A model generated the notes under the pieces. That model made no database searches and was not told where the DNA came from. It saw only the letters and a program-made list of their open reading frames with translations. The position numbers were made by a program, and so were the translations under genes. Below, piece by piece: positions 10,318 to 21,997 of a DNA stretch of 64,000 nt. The stretch spans positions 1 to 64,000 of the IMG/VR virus record IMGVR_UViG_3300047552_000880; one strand, given 5' to 3'. Each line of letters starts with the position of its first letter. Position 1 is the stretch's first letter. Source of the stretch: a virus.

Positions 10318-10706
10318 TTACTTCTTTCGATGATCTTTGAGCTAGAAAATCCGGGAATGCGTTCAAAGAACTTCAGTTCCTTGGCATACTGCGATCCGAT
10401 AACAAGTTTATCTCTGTAATCAGAACCAACCAGCATTATATCAGGATTCAGAATCTGAATGATCTGTTCGAGTTTTCTGTCTGTCTCAAAAATACCACAT
10501 GGGTGAACACCTTTAATCCGACTCAACTGGTACAGCCTCTGACCTTCTGTGTGTATTGGTCTATCTGCTCCCTTCAGCATCTTCACTCTTTCATCGGCAT
10601 CAATGGCAACATAAACATCACCAAGAGTAGACGCATAGTCAAAGAGTCTGAAATGACCGGGATGAAGAACATCAAACACCCCATTGATAAAAACAAGTTT
10701 TTTCAT
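10314..10706 (-). CDS. Cytidylyltransferase-like nucleotidyltransferase (RfaE/TagD type)
   Basis: A 130-residue protein with the full cytidylyltransferase signature: NGVFDVLHPGHFRLF (residues 8-22, HxGH at 16-19), DADERVK near 36, and the closing FSSSKIIE near 120. Family members attach CMP or AMP to glycerol-3-phosphate, heptose-1-phosphate and similar compounds. Together with cupin, HAD phosphatase and epimerase this suggests synthesis of a nucleotide-activated sugar or polyol. It overlaps the topoisomerase gene stop by 4 bp. Confidence 0.9.
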   Translation of the reverse strand: MKKLVFINGVFDVLHPGHFRLFDYASTLGDVYVAIDADERVKMLKGADRPIHTEGQRLYQLSRIKGVHPCGIFETDRKLEQIIQILNPDIMLVGSDYRDKLVIGSQYAKELKFFERIPGFSSSKIIERSK

Positions 10707-13700
10707 TTTCTCGGAAGCACAGAAATAAATCTGCTAGTAGAAGTCTCTGTTGAAAGCGTATCCAGTTTAGCTCTGATATCAGCAATCTCTGAAATCAGGT
10801 CAGACACCTTATCAGTCGTACATTCGTATATAGCGATATTACTGAATCTGGTTCCAAATTCATTTTCCGTAATATTGCTGCGAATGTAATCTAATAAGTC
10901 ATTCTTACTCATTTTTCGGAAGTCGATCTTATTGTCAATAACATGTTCAATGAAAAGTTTCTTGGCAGTCAGATATTCTACCTGATTATCATAGGTTTTC
11001 TTTTCGTAGTCCAATTTTTGCTGAAACTTTGAGAGTCGATACTCAACGAAGTGGTGTATCAACGAGGCAACGCTCTTGAAGATTTTTAGTTTACCGTGCT
11101 GATCCAATGTCGTTAGATTCTCGCTATGAATCTTCGCCAGCTTGAAATATGACAGCGGGTCTTTATCAATAGAATCTTTCTGCGCTCCAGTTACCTTAAC
11201 AGTGAACACGAACCCGGCGTCACTACAATGATCTTCATAGTCACGAATCTTATCAGAGTCAATCAATGTATTGAGAAAGGTGACATATGTAGCTCTGTCA
11301 TATCCAACTGGCAATTCACTGATTTTATACTGATACTTGCCAATGTACTCGATCTTTCCGAGGCTCTTATACTGATTATCCCCAATAGAGACAACTTCTC
11401 CGTTAAATGAAGGAAACGAAGGCAGTATATCTGCATTGGTATCAAGAAATTTTGTTGGGTTCTTGATACATTCTTTCACAGCGGCTACCAATGAATGTGT
11501 ACTACGCGGAAGAATATTTGAAGCAAAACCAACAGCGATACCAGAAACACCATTGACAAGAACCCAAGGGATAACAGGTAGATAGTGCAGCGGAGCACAT
11601 TGTTCAGGATCATCTGAATAATCAACGACTTCTTCATCAATAAAAAATTTCTTGAAATTATCACTGAGTTTAGCATAGATATAACGTGGCGCAGCAGGTT
11701 CCTGAATCAACCTCGAACCAAAGTTACCCTGACCCTCAAAAATAGGAGCATTGTTAGACCATTCGGCAGTCATACCATTGATAGCAGCAATAGCAGAAAC
11801 TTCGCCATGATGATATCCATATTTGGCAACACTACCACCCAACTCAGATAACTTCTGAAACCCCTTTGGTGAATTCAACATCGCATGAACAAGAATTCGC
11901 TGAACAGGCTTCAGACCATCGATGACGCTTGGAATCGCCCGATTCTCTATTGTATACATTGAGTAATCAAGATACTCGGTGTCAATTGCACTGGTAATCG
12001 TTTTCTTGTCAGTCACAACAGGCTGAACAAAATCTGTGTTCAACATCCATTCTTTTCTGGCATCAGCGGAGTCACCGAAAGCCATTTCAAGGCGCTCAAT
12101 TCCTTCTGGTGTCACTGTGACATATCTAGGGTTATTGATGACCTCAGAATAGATATCCTTTGGCATTGACCCCAATCCCTTGAAGTAAGAAACATTCCAA
12201 CCAGTGGAATCAAACTTCTGAAATTCATCTATTGTGTCAAAGGTTTTTACTTGCTTACCTTTTTTGCAATAGTAAAGCGGAGCCAGTAACCTGACAACTC
12301 TACCGCCATCGAACAGTTCTTTCCAATGAGAAAACAGATTCAGCAACAGACAGAAGATGTTATTACCATCTGTATCCATATCCGTGAATATTGCGATACG
12401 ACCGTAATTTAAATTCGTTGCTGGCTTGCCGAATTCTAGACCAATGATACTTAGTAACTCAGAGATTTCTTTGTTCTTCAGAATTTCAATCGGCTTCATT
12501 CCACGAACATTCATGACCTTCCCCTTAAGAGGGTATCCACCATGAATCTTTGGGTCACGAACTGTTAACAGGCTACCAAGAGCAGACTGACCTTCTGTAA
12601 TACACAGAACTGTCTGTGAACGATCTTTATTCGTTGCAGCAATATGATTGATGATAGGTGTACGCGAAAGAGTCTTCTTTTTCTTTTCTAGTTCGCGCCG
12701 TTCTTCCAATTCTTTTTTGTGTAGGATAGACTGAATCATTGGATCAATGATTTCAGGCGTGTTCAGAACACTTTTTGCGATCTTATCGAAGTCAAACCCA
12801 CTAAGATGACTAGAAAGCTCTGCAACAGTATTCGTTAAACGTTCTTTGGTCTGACTATCAAACTTCATATTAACGAAGTTACGAAGAACAGTCACAACAG
12901 TAAGATGTTGACGGATTGAGTTAGGAAGAACATCAATCTTATGTTTCTTCTTGATGTGCTGGCGCAATGGTTCAATTACACGGTCAACAATATAATTGAT
13001 ATGCGTTCCGCCGTTCTTTAACCACAGACCATTACAATAGGAATGCAATTGGAATTCTTCTGTTGCGCCGCTTGGCGCAAGAATAATTACACCAGCAGAA
13101 TTTTCTGCAATGACATTGACTGGATTAAACTTCGCTGCATACTCTGAAATTTTCTTCACTCGAATGGGTTCATCATTAAACGTGAATTTGATTTCAGGGA
13201 AACAGACAGCCAGATTCTCAAATTGATCTTTGAAGAAGTCAATGTGGTCTTGAGTCAACTCAGATAGCCCGAATGCAGCAACATCGGGAATGAAACTGAC
13301 TCTGGTAAATTTTTGTGTCGATTCCTTGGTGTGAATATTCTTGATATTCGCATTACCATTACACAGCAACCGGAGATATGTCTTTCCATCAGAGGTTTCT
13401 CCAATGAATTCTGTTGAGAAAACATTGGTCAGAAAACTACCAACTCCATTTGCGCCAATGGTTTCACGGCTGTCATCAAAATTCGAACCTGCACGAGCCT
13501 GAGTCCATGCAAGAACAGGTCTATATTGATTTGTTCCATCAACAATGGTAACAGGAATACCTCGACCATTATCTTCAACAATCACCTGATATGGTTCACC
13601 AAGAAGACCAAGGTCAACTTTCTTGATACTCACGCTGATCTTATTAGCGAACTTGTATTTTGTGCGAACAGCTTCATCAATCGAGTTATCAATAATTTCT

Positions 13701-13852
13701 CGAATAATTTTACACAGCGCCGGAACAATGGACAATGTTTGTTTCTGTCCAAAGAACATTCCTGTAATTTCTTCTACTGTCGCTGATCCAGCATACATCT
13801 GGACTCGTTTACGGATGTGTTCTGCATCCGTTAGAATTTTGAATTCACTCAT
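10703..13852 (-). CDS. Single-chain type II DNA topoisomerase (fused T4 gp39-gp60-gp52)
   Basis: A 1049-residue protein containing both halves of a type IIA topoisomerase. ATPase domain: EIIDNSIDEAV near residue 52, VEDNGRGIP near 92, GANGVGSFL near 133. TOPRIM: CITEGQSALGSL near 418 and FTDMDTDGNN near 489. Cleavage domain: PSVIDGLKPVQR near 644 and catalytic tyrosine in AAPRYIYAKL near 720. The C-terminus is a coiled region. T4 splits these functions over genes 39, 60 and 52 (about 1118 residues in total); here they form one chain, as in eukaryotic Top2. It relaxes DNA during replication. Downstream, the sugar genes overlap its end. Confidence 0.95.
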   Translation of the reverse strand: MSEFKILTDAEHIRKRVQMYAGSATVEEITGMFFGQKQTLSIVPALCKIIREIIDNSIDEAVRTKYKFANKISVSIKKVDLGLLGEPYQVIVEDNGRGIPVTIVDGTNQYRPVLAWTQARAGSNFDDSRETIGANGVGSFLTNVFSTEFIGETSDGKTYLRLLCNGNANIKNIHTKESTQKFTRVSFIPDVAAFGLSELTQDHIDFFKDQFENLAVCFPEIKFTFNDEPIRVKKISEYAAKFNPVNVIAENSAGVIILAPSGATEEFQLHSYCNGLWLKNGGTHINYIVDRVIEPLRQHIKKKHKIDVLPNSIRQHLTVVTVLRNFVNMKFDSQTKERLTNTVAELSSHLSGFDFDKIAKSVLNTPEIIDPMIQSILHKKELEERRELEKKKKTLSRTPIINHIAATNKDRSQTVLCITEGQSALGSLLTVRDPKIHGGYPLKGKVMNVRGMKPIEILKNKEISELLSIIGLEFGKPATNLNYGRIAIFTDMDTDGNNIFCLLLNLFSHWKELFDGGRVVRLLAPLYYCKKGKQVKTFDTIDEFQKFDSTGWNVSYFKGLGSMPKDIYSEVINNPRYVTVTPEGIERLEMAFGDSADARKEWMLNTDFVQPVVTDKKTITSAIDTEYLDYSMYTIENRAIPSVIDGLKPVQRILVHAMLNSPKGFQKLSELGGSVAKYGYHHGEVSAIAAINGMTAEWSNNAPIFEGQGNFGSRLIQEPAAPRYIYAKLSDNFKKFFIDEEVVDYSDDPEQCAPLHYLPVIPWVLVNGVSGIAVGFASNILPRSTHSLVAAVKECIKNPTKFLDTNADILPSFPSFNGEVVSIGDNQYKSLGKIEYIGKYQYKISELPVGYDRATYVTFLNTLIDSDKIRDYEDHCSDAGFVFTVKVTGAQKDSIDKDPLSYFKLAKIHSENLTTLDQHGKLKIFKSVASLIHHFVEYRLSKFQQKLDYEKKTYDNQVEYLTAKKLFIEHVIDNKIDFRKMSKNDLLDYIRSNITENEFGTRFSNIAIYECTTDKVSDLISEIADIRAKLDTLSTETSTSRFISVLPRK

Positions 13853-14262
13853 TTGATTTTATATGAAATCAGGTCAAAGATCATTTCACTGATGAATGCG
13901 TGTTTAAGATCATAAAAATCCATCTGAGCAATCATTTGATCAGAAAGAACTTTCTTGAGCGCAGAATTGACAGCAACATGATTGAATTGCATGTAACCTG
14001 ACATGGATTCAATGTGATAATTGACAGTATTATTGTAATCCGCAATCACCATCAATCGAGGCAATTGTGTTGCAAGACGATTATATGAAACCTGACGACC
14101 GATTGATTTATTATAAACATCGCCCTCAGAAAGTTTCGCCCAAGCAAACCAGACATGATTATGTTCACGAATATATGCAACAGTGAAACTGTTGTAGTTA
14201 TCACCTGTCCAATGATCAATAGCATGGATATAGCGAGGGTTCAGGTTACGAGAATCAATCAT
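13849..14262 (-). CDS. Hypothetical protein
   Basis: A 137-residue protein starting MIDSRNLNPRYIHAIDHWTG; the ATG at 14262 has GGAGCTTTCG upstream, whereas the longer frame from 14274 does not. It has several mixed strands (FTVAYIREHNHVWFAWAKL) and a C-terminal helix (FYDLKHAFISEMIFDLI). Not recognised. It overlaps the topoisomerase start by 4 bp, so it may be co-translated with it. Confidence 0.7.
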   Translation of the reverse strand: MIDSRNLNPRYIHAIDHWTGDNYNSFTVAYIREHNHVWFAWAKLSEGDVYNKSIGRQVSYNRLATQLPRLMVIADYNNTVNYHIESMSGYMQFNHVAVNSALKKVLSDQMIAQMDFYDLKHAFISEMIFDLISYKIK

Positions 14263-14398
14263 CGAAAGCTCCATTACGATGTTTAGGGTTACGGGAAACT
14301 TTTTCTTTCTGTTTCTTAGAAAGTTGTTTTGTGGCTTTGTTAAATTGGTTTGCGTGTTTTGCTACCCAATTTCTTGGTTTTACTTTAGGTGATGTCAT
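14255..14398 (-). CDS. Small basic phage protein
   Basis: A 47-residue, highly basic ORF: MTSPKVKPRNWVAKHANQFN then KATKQLSKKQKEKVSRNPKH and a short end. Small phage proteins of the form KPxNWVAKxxxxFNKA are common and uncharacterised; the charge suggests nucleic-acid binding. It starts 5 bp after the stop of the previous gene and overlaps the next by 8 bp, so it is likely coupled, though no clear ribosome site is seen. Confidence 0.65.
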   Translation of the reverse strand: MTSPKVKPRNWVAKHANQFNKATKQLSKKQKEKVSRNPKHRNGAFDD

Positions 14399-14403
14399 AA
14401 TCA

Positions 14404-14652
14404 TTATTGTAAACGATTTTTGTCATGCAGGCGCAGGTTTAGCACAAAATTTTCAACAACCAATTTTGTTACTGTTGCTAACATCGTCATTTCTCTGGCA
14501 TCCTTATCTCCACCAAGGTACATGTCCAGTACATTTGCTGCAATGTAACGGAAAGTGTCTTCTTCTGAGTGTGGAAGGTAGCCGAAGTCGATTGGGTCTG
14601 CTTGGTTGACTTCTAGCGCCAGTTCAGTGAGTTGGTCAAGTAAAGTTTTCAT
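14404..14652 (-). CDS. Hypothetical acidic protein downstream of a structured leader
   Basis: An 82-residue protein (MKTLLDQLTELALEVNQADP at the start, REMTMLATVTKLVVENFVLN near the end), helical and acidic. Not recognised. The ATG at 14652 has no ribosome site and follows by 15 bp a strong hairpin closing the 220-bp structured region upstream. Its translation may therefore be controlled by that RNA. Confidence 0.65.
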   Translation of the reverse strand: MKTLLDQLTELALEVNQADPIDFGYLPHSEEDTFRYIAANVLDMYLGGDKDAREMTMLATVTKLVVENFVLNLRLHDKNRLQ

Positions 14653-14872
14653 GATGATTGATTATTAGTCCCGCTTACAAAATACGGGGACGAACTTTCG
14701 TGTCGTCTGTTCTACCTATCACGGTAGTAACTTCTCGCTCTATGATGGCGTCATAGATGGCAGTGCATGCACTGTTTTACATTGTTTCCTACAAGACAAT
14801 GGACGCTCTAACCGGAACGACACGGACCCAAGGTAGGTATGGTACTCGATGTACGTATCGAGCATTAAACAA
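14653..14872 (-). ncRNA. Predicted structured RNA or riboswitch-like leader, about 210 nt
   Basis: This gene-free stretch folds, on the minus strand, into a string of hairpins: 14845-14862 (6 bp), 14780-14801 (6 bp), 14761-14774 (perfect palindrome CAGTGCATGCACTG), 14740-14756 (6 bp), 14712-14727 (5 bp), 14689-14707 (5 bp) and 14668-14691 (GTCCC/GGGAC). The last two share bases 14689-14691, so they are mutually exclusive, as in a switch. It has its own early-type promoter at 14873-14883. It could be a stand-alone RNA or the 5' leader of the gene at 14404. No known riboswitch motif was recognised. Confidence 0.6.
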
Positions 14873-14883
14873 ATTATAACACA
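14873..14883 (-). promoter_or_regulatory. Early-type extended -10 promoter TGTGTTATAAT
   Basis: The minus strand reads TTCTGTGTTATAAT, the best match to the extended -10 consensus in this window, overlapping the stop codon of the GIY-YIG gene. The predicted transcription start near 14866 lies at the 5' edge of the hairpin-rich region. Confidence 0.65.
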
Positions 14884-15323
14884 GAATTCTTCATATGTTT
14901 TTTATGTATTTTACATGAAATCCAGCTATTGTAATAAAGATCGCTCAAAAGAACATCCCTGATGAGTTGTTCCTTTATTTCATAATACGAAAGTTCTGAC
15001 TTACTATAACAATATCGAATAATTTCTCTGCGATATCGATCAGCGCCATTTTTTGCAATTTCTTCTTTCAGAAAATCGCTGGAGCCATAATAGTCTCGCC
15101 AGTCACTCGGTATCTGAATTTTTGTTTTCTTCTTAACCTTTGATCCTTTATTTACTCCACTTTTTACGGTAACTGTTCTGACCGAATACTTGTGCGAATA
15201 AAGATTCTTCTTACCAATATACATTTTTCCGCTGTCTATATGAGTTATCAGATAGATGAACCCAATAGCTGCTTCTGGTATTTCTGAATCAAGGACAGGT
15301 TTATCATTATACACCCAATCCAT
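14874..15323 (-). CDS. GIY-YIG endonuclease-like protein
   Basis: A 149-residue protein with the GIY-YIG nuclease core: IGFIYLITHIDSGKMYIGKK (about residues 20-39), where FIYLI replaces the first GIY and MYIG is the YIG part, followed by YGSSDFLKEEIAKNGADRYR near 85 and the later Glu in SYYEIKEQLI. Such proteins in T4-type phages are homing endonucleases (Seg, I-TevI) or related nucleases. No DNA-binding C-terminal domain is obvious. The gene lies alone, not in an intron. Its start codon is inside an 8-bp hairpin stem that overlaps a late promoter. Confidence 0.8.
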   Translation of the reverse strand: MDWVYNDKPVLDSEIPEAAIGFIYLITHIDSGKMYIGKKNLYSHKYSVRTVTVKSGVNKGSKVKKKTKIQIPSDWRDYYGSSDFLKEEIAKNGADRYRREIIRYCYSKSELSYYEIKEQLIRDVLLSDLYYNSWISCKIHKKHMKNSVL

Positions 15324-15348
15324 AAGCTGCCTTTCATTGACAGCTTAT
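15322..15348 (-). promoter_or_regulatory. Start-codon hairpin overlapping a late promoter
   Basis: On the minus strand ATAAGCTG (15348-15341) pairs perfectly with CAGCTTAT (15329-15322), whose last two bases are the AT of the start codon at 15323. The ribosome site AAAGG is in the 11-nt loop. The upstream arm overlaps the late-type element ATTAAATA (15353-15346). RNA reading through from upstream genes would carry the whole hairpin and block the start; RNA begun at the late promoter would lack the 5' arm. Confidence 0.65.
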
Positions 15349-15352
15349 TTAA

Positions 15353-15529
15353 TTACTTCAGATAACGAGTATATGCAGCGGCTTCTTCTTCGTCATCGAA
15401 CCCCATTTCATCGTATGCATCAAATCTTGGTCGCTTTGTCCTTGATTCAGCCTTTTTCTTCGCAGCAATATGAGATTCATTTTCATATTCACTGTTTGTA
15501 TTGCGATTACGATTTTGTTGAGTTTCCAT
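15353..15529 (-). CDS. Hypothetical small charged protein
   Basis: A 58-residue protein beginning METQQNRNRNTNSEYENESH, then a lysine-rich stretch AAKKKAESRTKRPRFDAYDE and the acidic end MGFDDEEEAAAYTRYLK. It looks largely disordered. The ATG at 15529 is used rather than an upstream TTG. It overlaps the gp59-like gene by 23 bp. Position between gp59 and the GIY-YIG gene; no family recognised. Confidence 0.6.
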   Translation of the reverse strand: METQQNRNRNTNSEYENESHIAAKKKAESRTKRPRFDAYDEMGFDDEEEAAAYTRYLK

Positions 15530-21383: not shown

Positions 21384-21404
21384 ATTATAACACAATTATT
21401 TAAT
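21384..21404 (-). promoter_or_regulatory. Paired late-type and early-type promoter elements before gp55
   Basis: On the minus strand the late-type element ATTAAATA (21404-21397) is followed directly by the extended -10 TGTGTTATAAT (21394-21384). The early start would fall near 21377, 13 bp before the gp55 ATG. A stem of CCGCA (21409-21405) with TGCGG (near 21375-21371) would enclose both. Confidence 0.6.
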
Positions 21405-21960
21405 GCGGTTTCATTTCTCCATAGGGAAAGCAGTAGGGTGAACTATTGGGGAATAACTTCTAGGGATTCTAAGGCTTAGGGGTATCTTTTAATATTAGAT
21501 ACTACTCTTTACTTAGATTAGTCCGAAGGACTGTTGCGTAGCAACCCATAGAACATTCTCAGTTCATTCCTACTTCGAGTATTAGATTACTCTAATACGC
21601 TCTTGACACTTTCCATACTGAGTGTACTTATGTCTCAACTCTAACCCTCTTATCGACCGAGTTTTTATCAGGCTACCTTACGGTCATGCCTGCACAGACT
21701 CCATACCAAGAGTTGCAATCTCTCGGAAACTGTGTATGGTTATCACCCTTTTCAGGAGGTCGTTTGTAGCAATGATTGAGTGAACCAATGCTCCGGCTGC
21801 TTTCCAATTCCCCGGTGGGTCAGTTTATATTCTTACATGCTCATGATGCTTCATGAGGTTTTTACGTGAACCTTTAAACTGTAACTTAAACACGATCCCT
21901 ACTTTGACACGGTGCTAGGATTTGGCATTAAAGTAGATAGTAAGTGTCACTAACCATCTA
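21405..21960 (-). ncRNA. Predicted large structured noncoding RNA, about 550 nt
   Basis: No ORF or ribosome site is present across this stretch, the longest gene-free one in the window. Minus-strand RNA can form: 21933-21961, 21841-21856 (TCATGA-AGCA-TCATGA), 21856-21873, a bulged 12-bp hairpin 21701-21739, 21669-21692 (inner ACC-GTAA-GGT with a GNRA loop), 21579-21598 (8 bp, tetraloop), 21533-21545, 21520-21532 (TTCG loop), 21482-21502. CACAG (21734-21730) and CTGTG (21697-21693) would make a pseudoknot. Two promoter elements lie at the 5' edge. It is comparable in size to GOLLD and ROOL RNAs, but membership is not shown. Confidence 0.65.
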
Positions 21961-21964
21961 CAGT

Positions 21965-21983
21965 TATTTATCATTCTAACACA
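21965..21983 (-). promoter_or_regulatory. Paired early-type and late-type promoter elements before the large RNA
   Basis: The minus strand reads TGTGTTAGAAT (21983-21973), one base from the best extended -10 in the window, then GATAAATA (21972-21965), a good late-type element. Both lie between the gp2-like gene and the hairpin-rich region, so the RNA could be made early and late. CATTCT/AGAATG may also form a hairpin here (21972-21997). Confidence 0.55.
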
Positions 21984-21997
21984 AGAAAATCAGAATG

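Follow-up and report, generated by a model that had tools for sequence, protein, structure and literature searches.

What is the run of short hairpins that separates a homing endonuclease gene from a topoisomerase operon in a T4-like phage, and what could it do as RNA? The window, i.e., the whole 64,000-nt stretch of DNA that was analysed, is part of such a phage, whose full IMG/VR record comprises 126 kb. Its minus strand carries T4-type early genes, including those for the late sigma factor, gp46/47-like proteins, an rnh-like exonuclease, gp33, gp59, and a topoisomerase. A second IMG/VR contig of 178 kb was 100% identical to the window in all compared stretches (13 kb round the hairpin array and a further 20 kb), and it therefore added no variation. 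Offsets in the positions of motifs shared by the two records (G000 and G001) suggest that the phage genome is circularly permuted and about 178 kb long, the 126-kb record being a fragment of it.

Along the minus strand, the endonuclease gene is followed by a promoter, the hairpin RNA, an 82-aa gene, a DUF7230 gene, a 141-aa gene, and the topoisomerase gene (Table 1). Overlapping genes (overlaps of 1 to 119 nt) run from 14652 down to at least 9349, and the 221-nt gap that holds the hairpins is the only non-coding interval in this chain; the next gap upstream measures 29 nt. The reading we favor, with a little over even confidence, is that the array is the structured 5' leader of a transcript covering the 82-aa, DUF7230, 141-aa, and topoisomerase genes together with the genes that follow.

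Table 1. Features of the hairpin locus, in order along the minus strand (coordinates are those of the window)
Feature	Coordinates	Strand	Support
Free-standing GIY-YIG (SegE-like) homing endonuclease gene; promoter in its 3' end	14874..15323	-	PF19835, E 1.4e-30
Extended -10 promoter TGTGTTATAAT	14873..14883	-	motif copies at gene starts
Predicted structured 5' leader RNA, ~214 nt	14653..14866	-	start placed from -10 position; local-fold z -4.3
Hairpin 1, 8 bp, 5'-terminal	14843..14864	-	global and local folds; pair probability 0.75-1.0 (global ensemble)
Hairpin 2, 8 bp in local fold; 5 bp (14838-14826) in global fold	14821..14841	-	folding
Hairpin 3, 5 bp	14804..14819	-	local fold only
Hairpin 4, 8 bp in local fold; globally partly replaced by a longer composite arm	14780..14801	-	folding
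Hairpin 5, 14-nt perfect palindrome CAGTGCATGCACTG	14761..14774	-	local fold
Hairpin 6, 7 bp	14739..14757	-	both folds
Hairpin 7, 8 bp	14709..14731	-	both folds
Hairpin 8, GAAA loop closed by C-G; in the global MFE its 5' strand pairs with 14824-14816	14689..14707	-	
Hairpin 9, full length overlaps hairpin 8 by 14689-14691; no T-run after it	14668..14691	-	folding
82-aa gene, first of operon; uncharacterised phage family, motif VENFVLNL	14404..14652	-	alignment, AlphaFold2
49-aa DUF7230 gene, 1-nt overlap with 82-aa gene	14255..14404	-	PF23876, 28.3 bits
141-aa gene of unknown function, 20-nt overlap	13849..14274	-	
Single-ORF type II DNA topoisomerase gene (large and medium subunits), 4-nt overlap	10703..13852	-	phrog_543, phrog_551

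The preliminary description had given the array an extended -10 promoter of its own, and this was borne out. The TAA stop of the endonuclease gene (14876-14874) falls inside the TATAAT of TGTGTTATAAT, so that the end of this endonuclease cassette embeds a promoter for what lies downstream. While 0.135 copies of TGTGTTATAAT were expected from shuffles, two were found in the 126-kb record. The 178-kb assembly holds five, and the four other than the leader's own are each placed just upstream of a gene start, with ATCTACAC preceding two of them and the near-match ATCTACACATT a third. Given these positions, and the ATCTACAC or near-match ATCTACACATT upstream of three copies, we take TGTGTTATAAT to be the phage's own promoter form. 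The copy at the leader has no good -35 match and is without a ATCTACAC-type upstream element; that no -35 is recognisable counts against the leader model, as does the fact that no diverged second copy was found. The syntenic relative G003 has extended -10 sites of this kind (GTGTGGTATAAT, GTATGGTATAAT), with short leaders, before genes of this cassette and also directly before the topoisomerase gene. At three loci of the 178-kb assembly (L093, L094, and L095), a common early-promoter form, ATCTACAC ... GTGTTATAAT, was seen, and G003 has TTTACACATAATTGCTNGTGTGGTATAAT.

At the start of the endonuclease gene, a 10-bp hairpin (15320-15353, minus strand; z -4.3) reaches into the start codon, and just upstream of it is TTAAATA, a sequence that recurs some 30 nt ahead of several late genes. 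Taken together, these elements look like the T4 design for a homing endonuclease that is blocked early and expressed late.

Judged from the position of the -10 alone, RNA polymerase would start near 14866, driven by the promoter in the last codons of the endonuclease gene and two bases before the first hairpin, which begins at 14864. About 214 nt of untranslated RNA would then fold locally while emerging, giving about nine short hairpins, and transcription would continue from this leader into the operon as an early or middle transcript. No terminator-like site was found on the minus strand from 14873 to the topoisomerase gene and, together with the overlaps between the genes, this means that the promoter most simply drives the operon and that the RNA is its leader. 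The layout is that of a structured operon leader, with a promoter upstream and neither an ORF nor a terminator before the first gene of the predicted transcript; the longest reading frame within the leader has 41 aa and is not convincing. Inside hairpin 4 (14778-14791, minus strand), AGGAAACAATGTAA combines a Shine-Dalgarno-like AGGA with a start codon and an immediate stop, which may be chance.

The missing terminator also bears on the proposal, made in the preliminary description, of a small RNA. Such an independent RNA, about 200 nt long and working either in trans or as a decoy that binds host proteins, would have to be processed from the leader, since no intrinsic terminator follows the array and hairpin 9 is without a T-run. 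The element does have its own promoter, dense structure, and no convincing ORF (at most 41 aa), and stable RNAs are not unusual beside the 82-aa gene, which in several phages comes directly after a tRNA gene and in several lies inside a tRNA gene array. With no homologue in Rfam or any searched collection, however, we regard a processed small RNA as unlikely.

Among the products of the operon, the 82-aa protein belongs to a family whose motif, EDPIDWGML...VENFVLNL, was present in at least 188 viral-contig stretches. Scans assigned it to no Pfam or PHROG family, and its AlphaFold2 model has three helices with a mean pLDDT of 87. A search with the 141-aa gene retrieved the same phage only. The topoisomerase (10703-13852) is a single ORF of 1049 aa, as it is in the relative G002, and is divided into two ORFs in G003.

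The hairpins exceed what chance would give. The array consists of about nine short hairpins set back to back from 14864 to 14668 on the minus strand, with centers about 20 nt apart. When pairing was limited to 30 nt, the local MFE comprised nine helices between 14864 and 14670 and reached -54.4 kcal/mol, compared to -33.6 ± 4.8 in dinucleotide shuffles (z -4.3; 0 of 500), and six disjoint perfect hairpins of at least 5 bp were counted where shuffles gave a mean of 1.55 (0 of 500). These shuffle statistics flatter the array, as the region was picked for its hairpins; its rank across the genome, a fairer measure that partly corrects for this, was about 10th of the 3542 windows of the 126-kb record by raw local energy. 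Folded as a whole, the RNA was only modestly more stable than its shuffles (z -2.01, 9 of 200; z -2.95, 2 of 500) and, after GC correction, ordinary among genome windows (z -1.1). A strong local excess with a modest global fold indicates that the signal is a chain of short hairpins and not a single global architecture. The seven hairpins in 210 nt of the preliminary description thus hold up as a run beyond chance, with about nine in the local fold, but not as a whole-RNA fold of unusual stability.

We also looked for relatives of the RNA. In Rfam, no family reached gathering scores in the window, and only chance matches (E up to 10) lay below them, so the Rfam search that had been proposed assigned the array to no riboswitch or other known RNA family. 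Phages and plasmids yielded no DNA match of note. Patterns of 19 to 24 bases recovered the same phage only in IMG/VR and nothing in the bacterial and archaeal genome collection; scans of this exact-pattern type overlook relatives of less than about 90% identity, and elsewhere there may be a diverged homologue. A covariance model of the array core (R1) found only itself among 80 loci round relatives of the 82-aa gene, 33 loci round endonuclease relatives, and 18 further whole phage contigs or genomes. The same genome holds no further copies, and no homologue of the hairpin RNA was found in either of the two nearest relatives. G003 keeps the gene order rnh, 145-aa gene, gp33, gp59, 60-aa gene, and then topoisomerase, and between the last two it has quite different genes and no such RNA.

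Three more specific origins were rejected. Conservation of the RNA together with the 82-aa gene was discarded, as other genes or tRNAs lie upstream of the relatives of that gene. A group I intron, suggested by the adjacent endonuclease, was dismissed because there was no Rfam group I match; in the 32 listed endonuclease relatives, what comes next is other sequence, for the most part protein genes, and never this RNA. A tRNA or tRNA remnant was ruled out, since ARAGORN found none in the window and no tRNA model matched. The global fold is a cloverleaf-like four-way junction, but its stems have the wrong lengths and its loops the wrong sequences for a tRNA.

That the array was found in one phage only would suit a neutral, DNA-level feature: a hairpin-rich insertion, or inverted repeats left by template switching, within a variable cassette beside a homing endonuclease gene, with no RNA function beyond carrying the promoter. 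The entirely different genes that G003 holds between its 60-aa gene and its topoisomerase fit this, as does the nearly equal folding of the two strands. The small difference between the strands favors the leader, the transcribed strand being slightly better in local folding than its complement (-54.4 versus -51.1). Neutrality is harder to reconcile with nine hairpins of unrelated sequence that stand next to each other exactly between a promoter and the start of an operon, in a genome where non-coding bases are scarce, and we consider this explanation rather unlikely.

Elsewhere in the window, a non-coding stretch of about 610 nt (21386-21997, minus strand) lies between the genes for the DNA-end protector and the late sigma factor. 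It begins with a promoter-like TTGACA-17-TAGAAT preceded by TG (22001-21973), ends with another TGTGTTATAAT, contains several strong hairpins, and matches no Rfam family. This is probably the first structured RNA of the preliminary description.

The 82-aa gene had been described as lacking a ribosome site. Indeed, by reading of the sequence no Shine-Dalgarno precedes 14652, but this is ordinary in this phage: about half of the 37 genes sampled pair only weakly with the 16S 3' end, the topoisomerase, 141-aa, and DUF7230 genes among them. The start at 14652 was the most open of the 25 genes tested, with a mean unpaired probability of 0.81 from -15 to +10, and it is therefore not covered by a T4-type blocking hairpin. 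Shuffled leaders left the start about as open (0.68 ± 0.10 versus 0.72), indicating that the start codon is not hidden by the leader and does not depend on it for its openness; a role of the leader in holding the start open was dropped on the same grounds. In T4 genes 25 and 38, RNA structure helps an upstream Shine-Dalgarno (PMC3014915), and reading of the sequence upstream of hairpin 9 revealed none. The first gene would thus be translated from an open, AU-rich start without a Shine-Dalgarno, as many genes here seem to be.

The last two stems had been said to exclude each other. Bases 14689-14691 are indeed common to the stem 14707-14689 and the full-length stem 14691-14668, but the exclusion applies only to full-length hairpin 9: in the tail folded alone, both hairpins formed, with hairpin 9 shortened to 14688-14670 (-13.5 kcal/mol). 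Hairpin 8 gives way to a long-range helix (14824-14816 with 14707-14699) in the global MFE. These alternatives could make the leader regulatory, with a ligand or a phage protein, e.g., an operon product, choosing between the long-range helix, hairpin 8, and full-length hairpin 9. The 3' strand of the long-range helix is common to an alternative hairpin, a riboswitch-like layout, and T4 itself employs structures in leader RNAs as well as autogenous repression (PMC3014915). However, by our own estimate a 9-bp long-range helix within 212 nt is roughly what chance provides, hairpins 8 and 9 are able to form side by side, the start site stays open whether or not the leader is included, and no Rfam family or conservation in relatives was found, all of which makes a choice between exclusive folds quite improbable. 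Of the cis-acting switch suggested in the preliminary description, the cis-acting part survives in the weak sense of a 5' leader that has a promoter of its own and reaches the gene without a terminator, whereas the switch itself lacks support, the start codon not being sequestered in the folds. Nor is a conserved switch supported, as no relative of the hairpin RNA was found elsewhere: the relatives of the 82-aa gene, those of the endonuclease, and the syntenic G003 have neither the stems nor the arrangement, which is largely the outcome in homologous phages that the preliminary description had named as refuting its proposal.

For the favored reading, that of an operon leader, the most likely role would be protection, with the 5'-terminal stem-loop and the scarcity of single-stranded RNA shielding the operon mRNA from 5'-end-dependent decay. 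In E. coli, 5' hairpins impede RppH and can stabilise mRNA (PMC3997798), and hairpin 1 would be placed in this way if transcription starts near 14866. A leader of nine hairpins is much more than this would need, which argues against a stabiliser role. It is also conceivable, though fairly improbable, that the array is a previously undescribed, lineage-specific hairpin-chain RNA that serves as a regulator in early infection or as a protein or nuclease decoy, in addition to being the leader of the topoisomerase operon. If made, the RNA would be a natural leader unusually dense in hairpins, heading an early phage operon to which the replication topoisomerase belongs. The array offers a concrete candidate leader for work on mRNA decay or riboregulation in environmental T4-like phages, though it points to no new mechanism.

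The locus can be compared with four kinds of known system. Like riboswitch-type leaders, it has a multi-helix domain and a closing long-range helix with a 3' strand that can also pair elsewhere; unlike them, it has no Rfam match, no homologues found, and neither a terminator nor a sequestered start site as an expression platform. With the T4-type translation-blocking hairpins (gene e, I-TevI, Aeh1 mobE, and T4 segB), it shares leader hairpins in a T4-like phage, and the upstream endonuclease gene (15323) has a hairpin of that type, whereas no start codon or Shine-Dalgarno is sequestered at 14652. The E. coli 5' stem-loop stabilisers (the ompA and papA leaders and the hairpin appended to bla) resemble it in that only a few nucleotides separate a hairpin from the inferred 5' end, and that this hairpin lies ahead of the start codon without covering it. 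These have one or two hairpins, as opposed to about nine over 200 nt in the present leader, a putative stabiliser in a phage. In T4, the free-standing endonuclease genes segG, segA, segE, mobB, and mobC have embedded promoters for downstream genes (PMC2988022). The present cassette likewise has a GIY-YIG endonuclease gene, oriented like the gene downstream, and the promoter of that downstream gene sits within the last part of the endonuclease reading frame. If the RNA is made, the cassette would add to the cases in which an endonuclease gene supplies the promoter for the genes after it and thereby becomes hard to lose. It differs from the T4 cassettes in its neighboring genes and in the long hairpin leader that follows the promoter.
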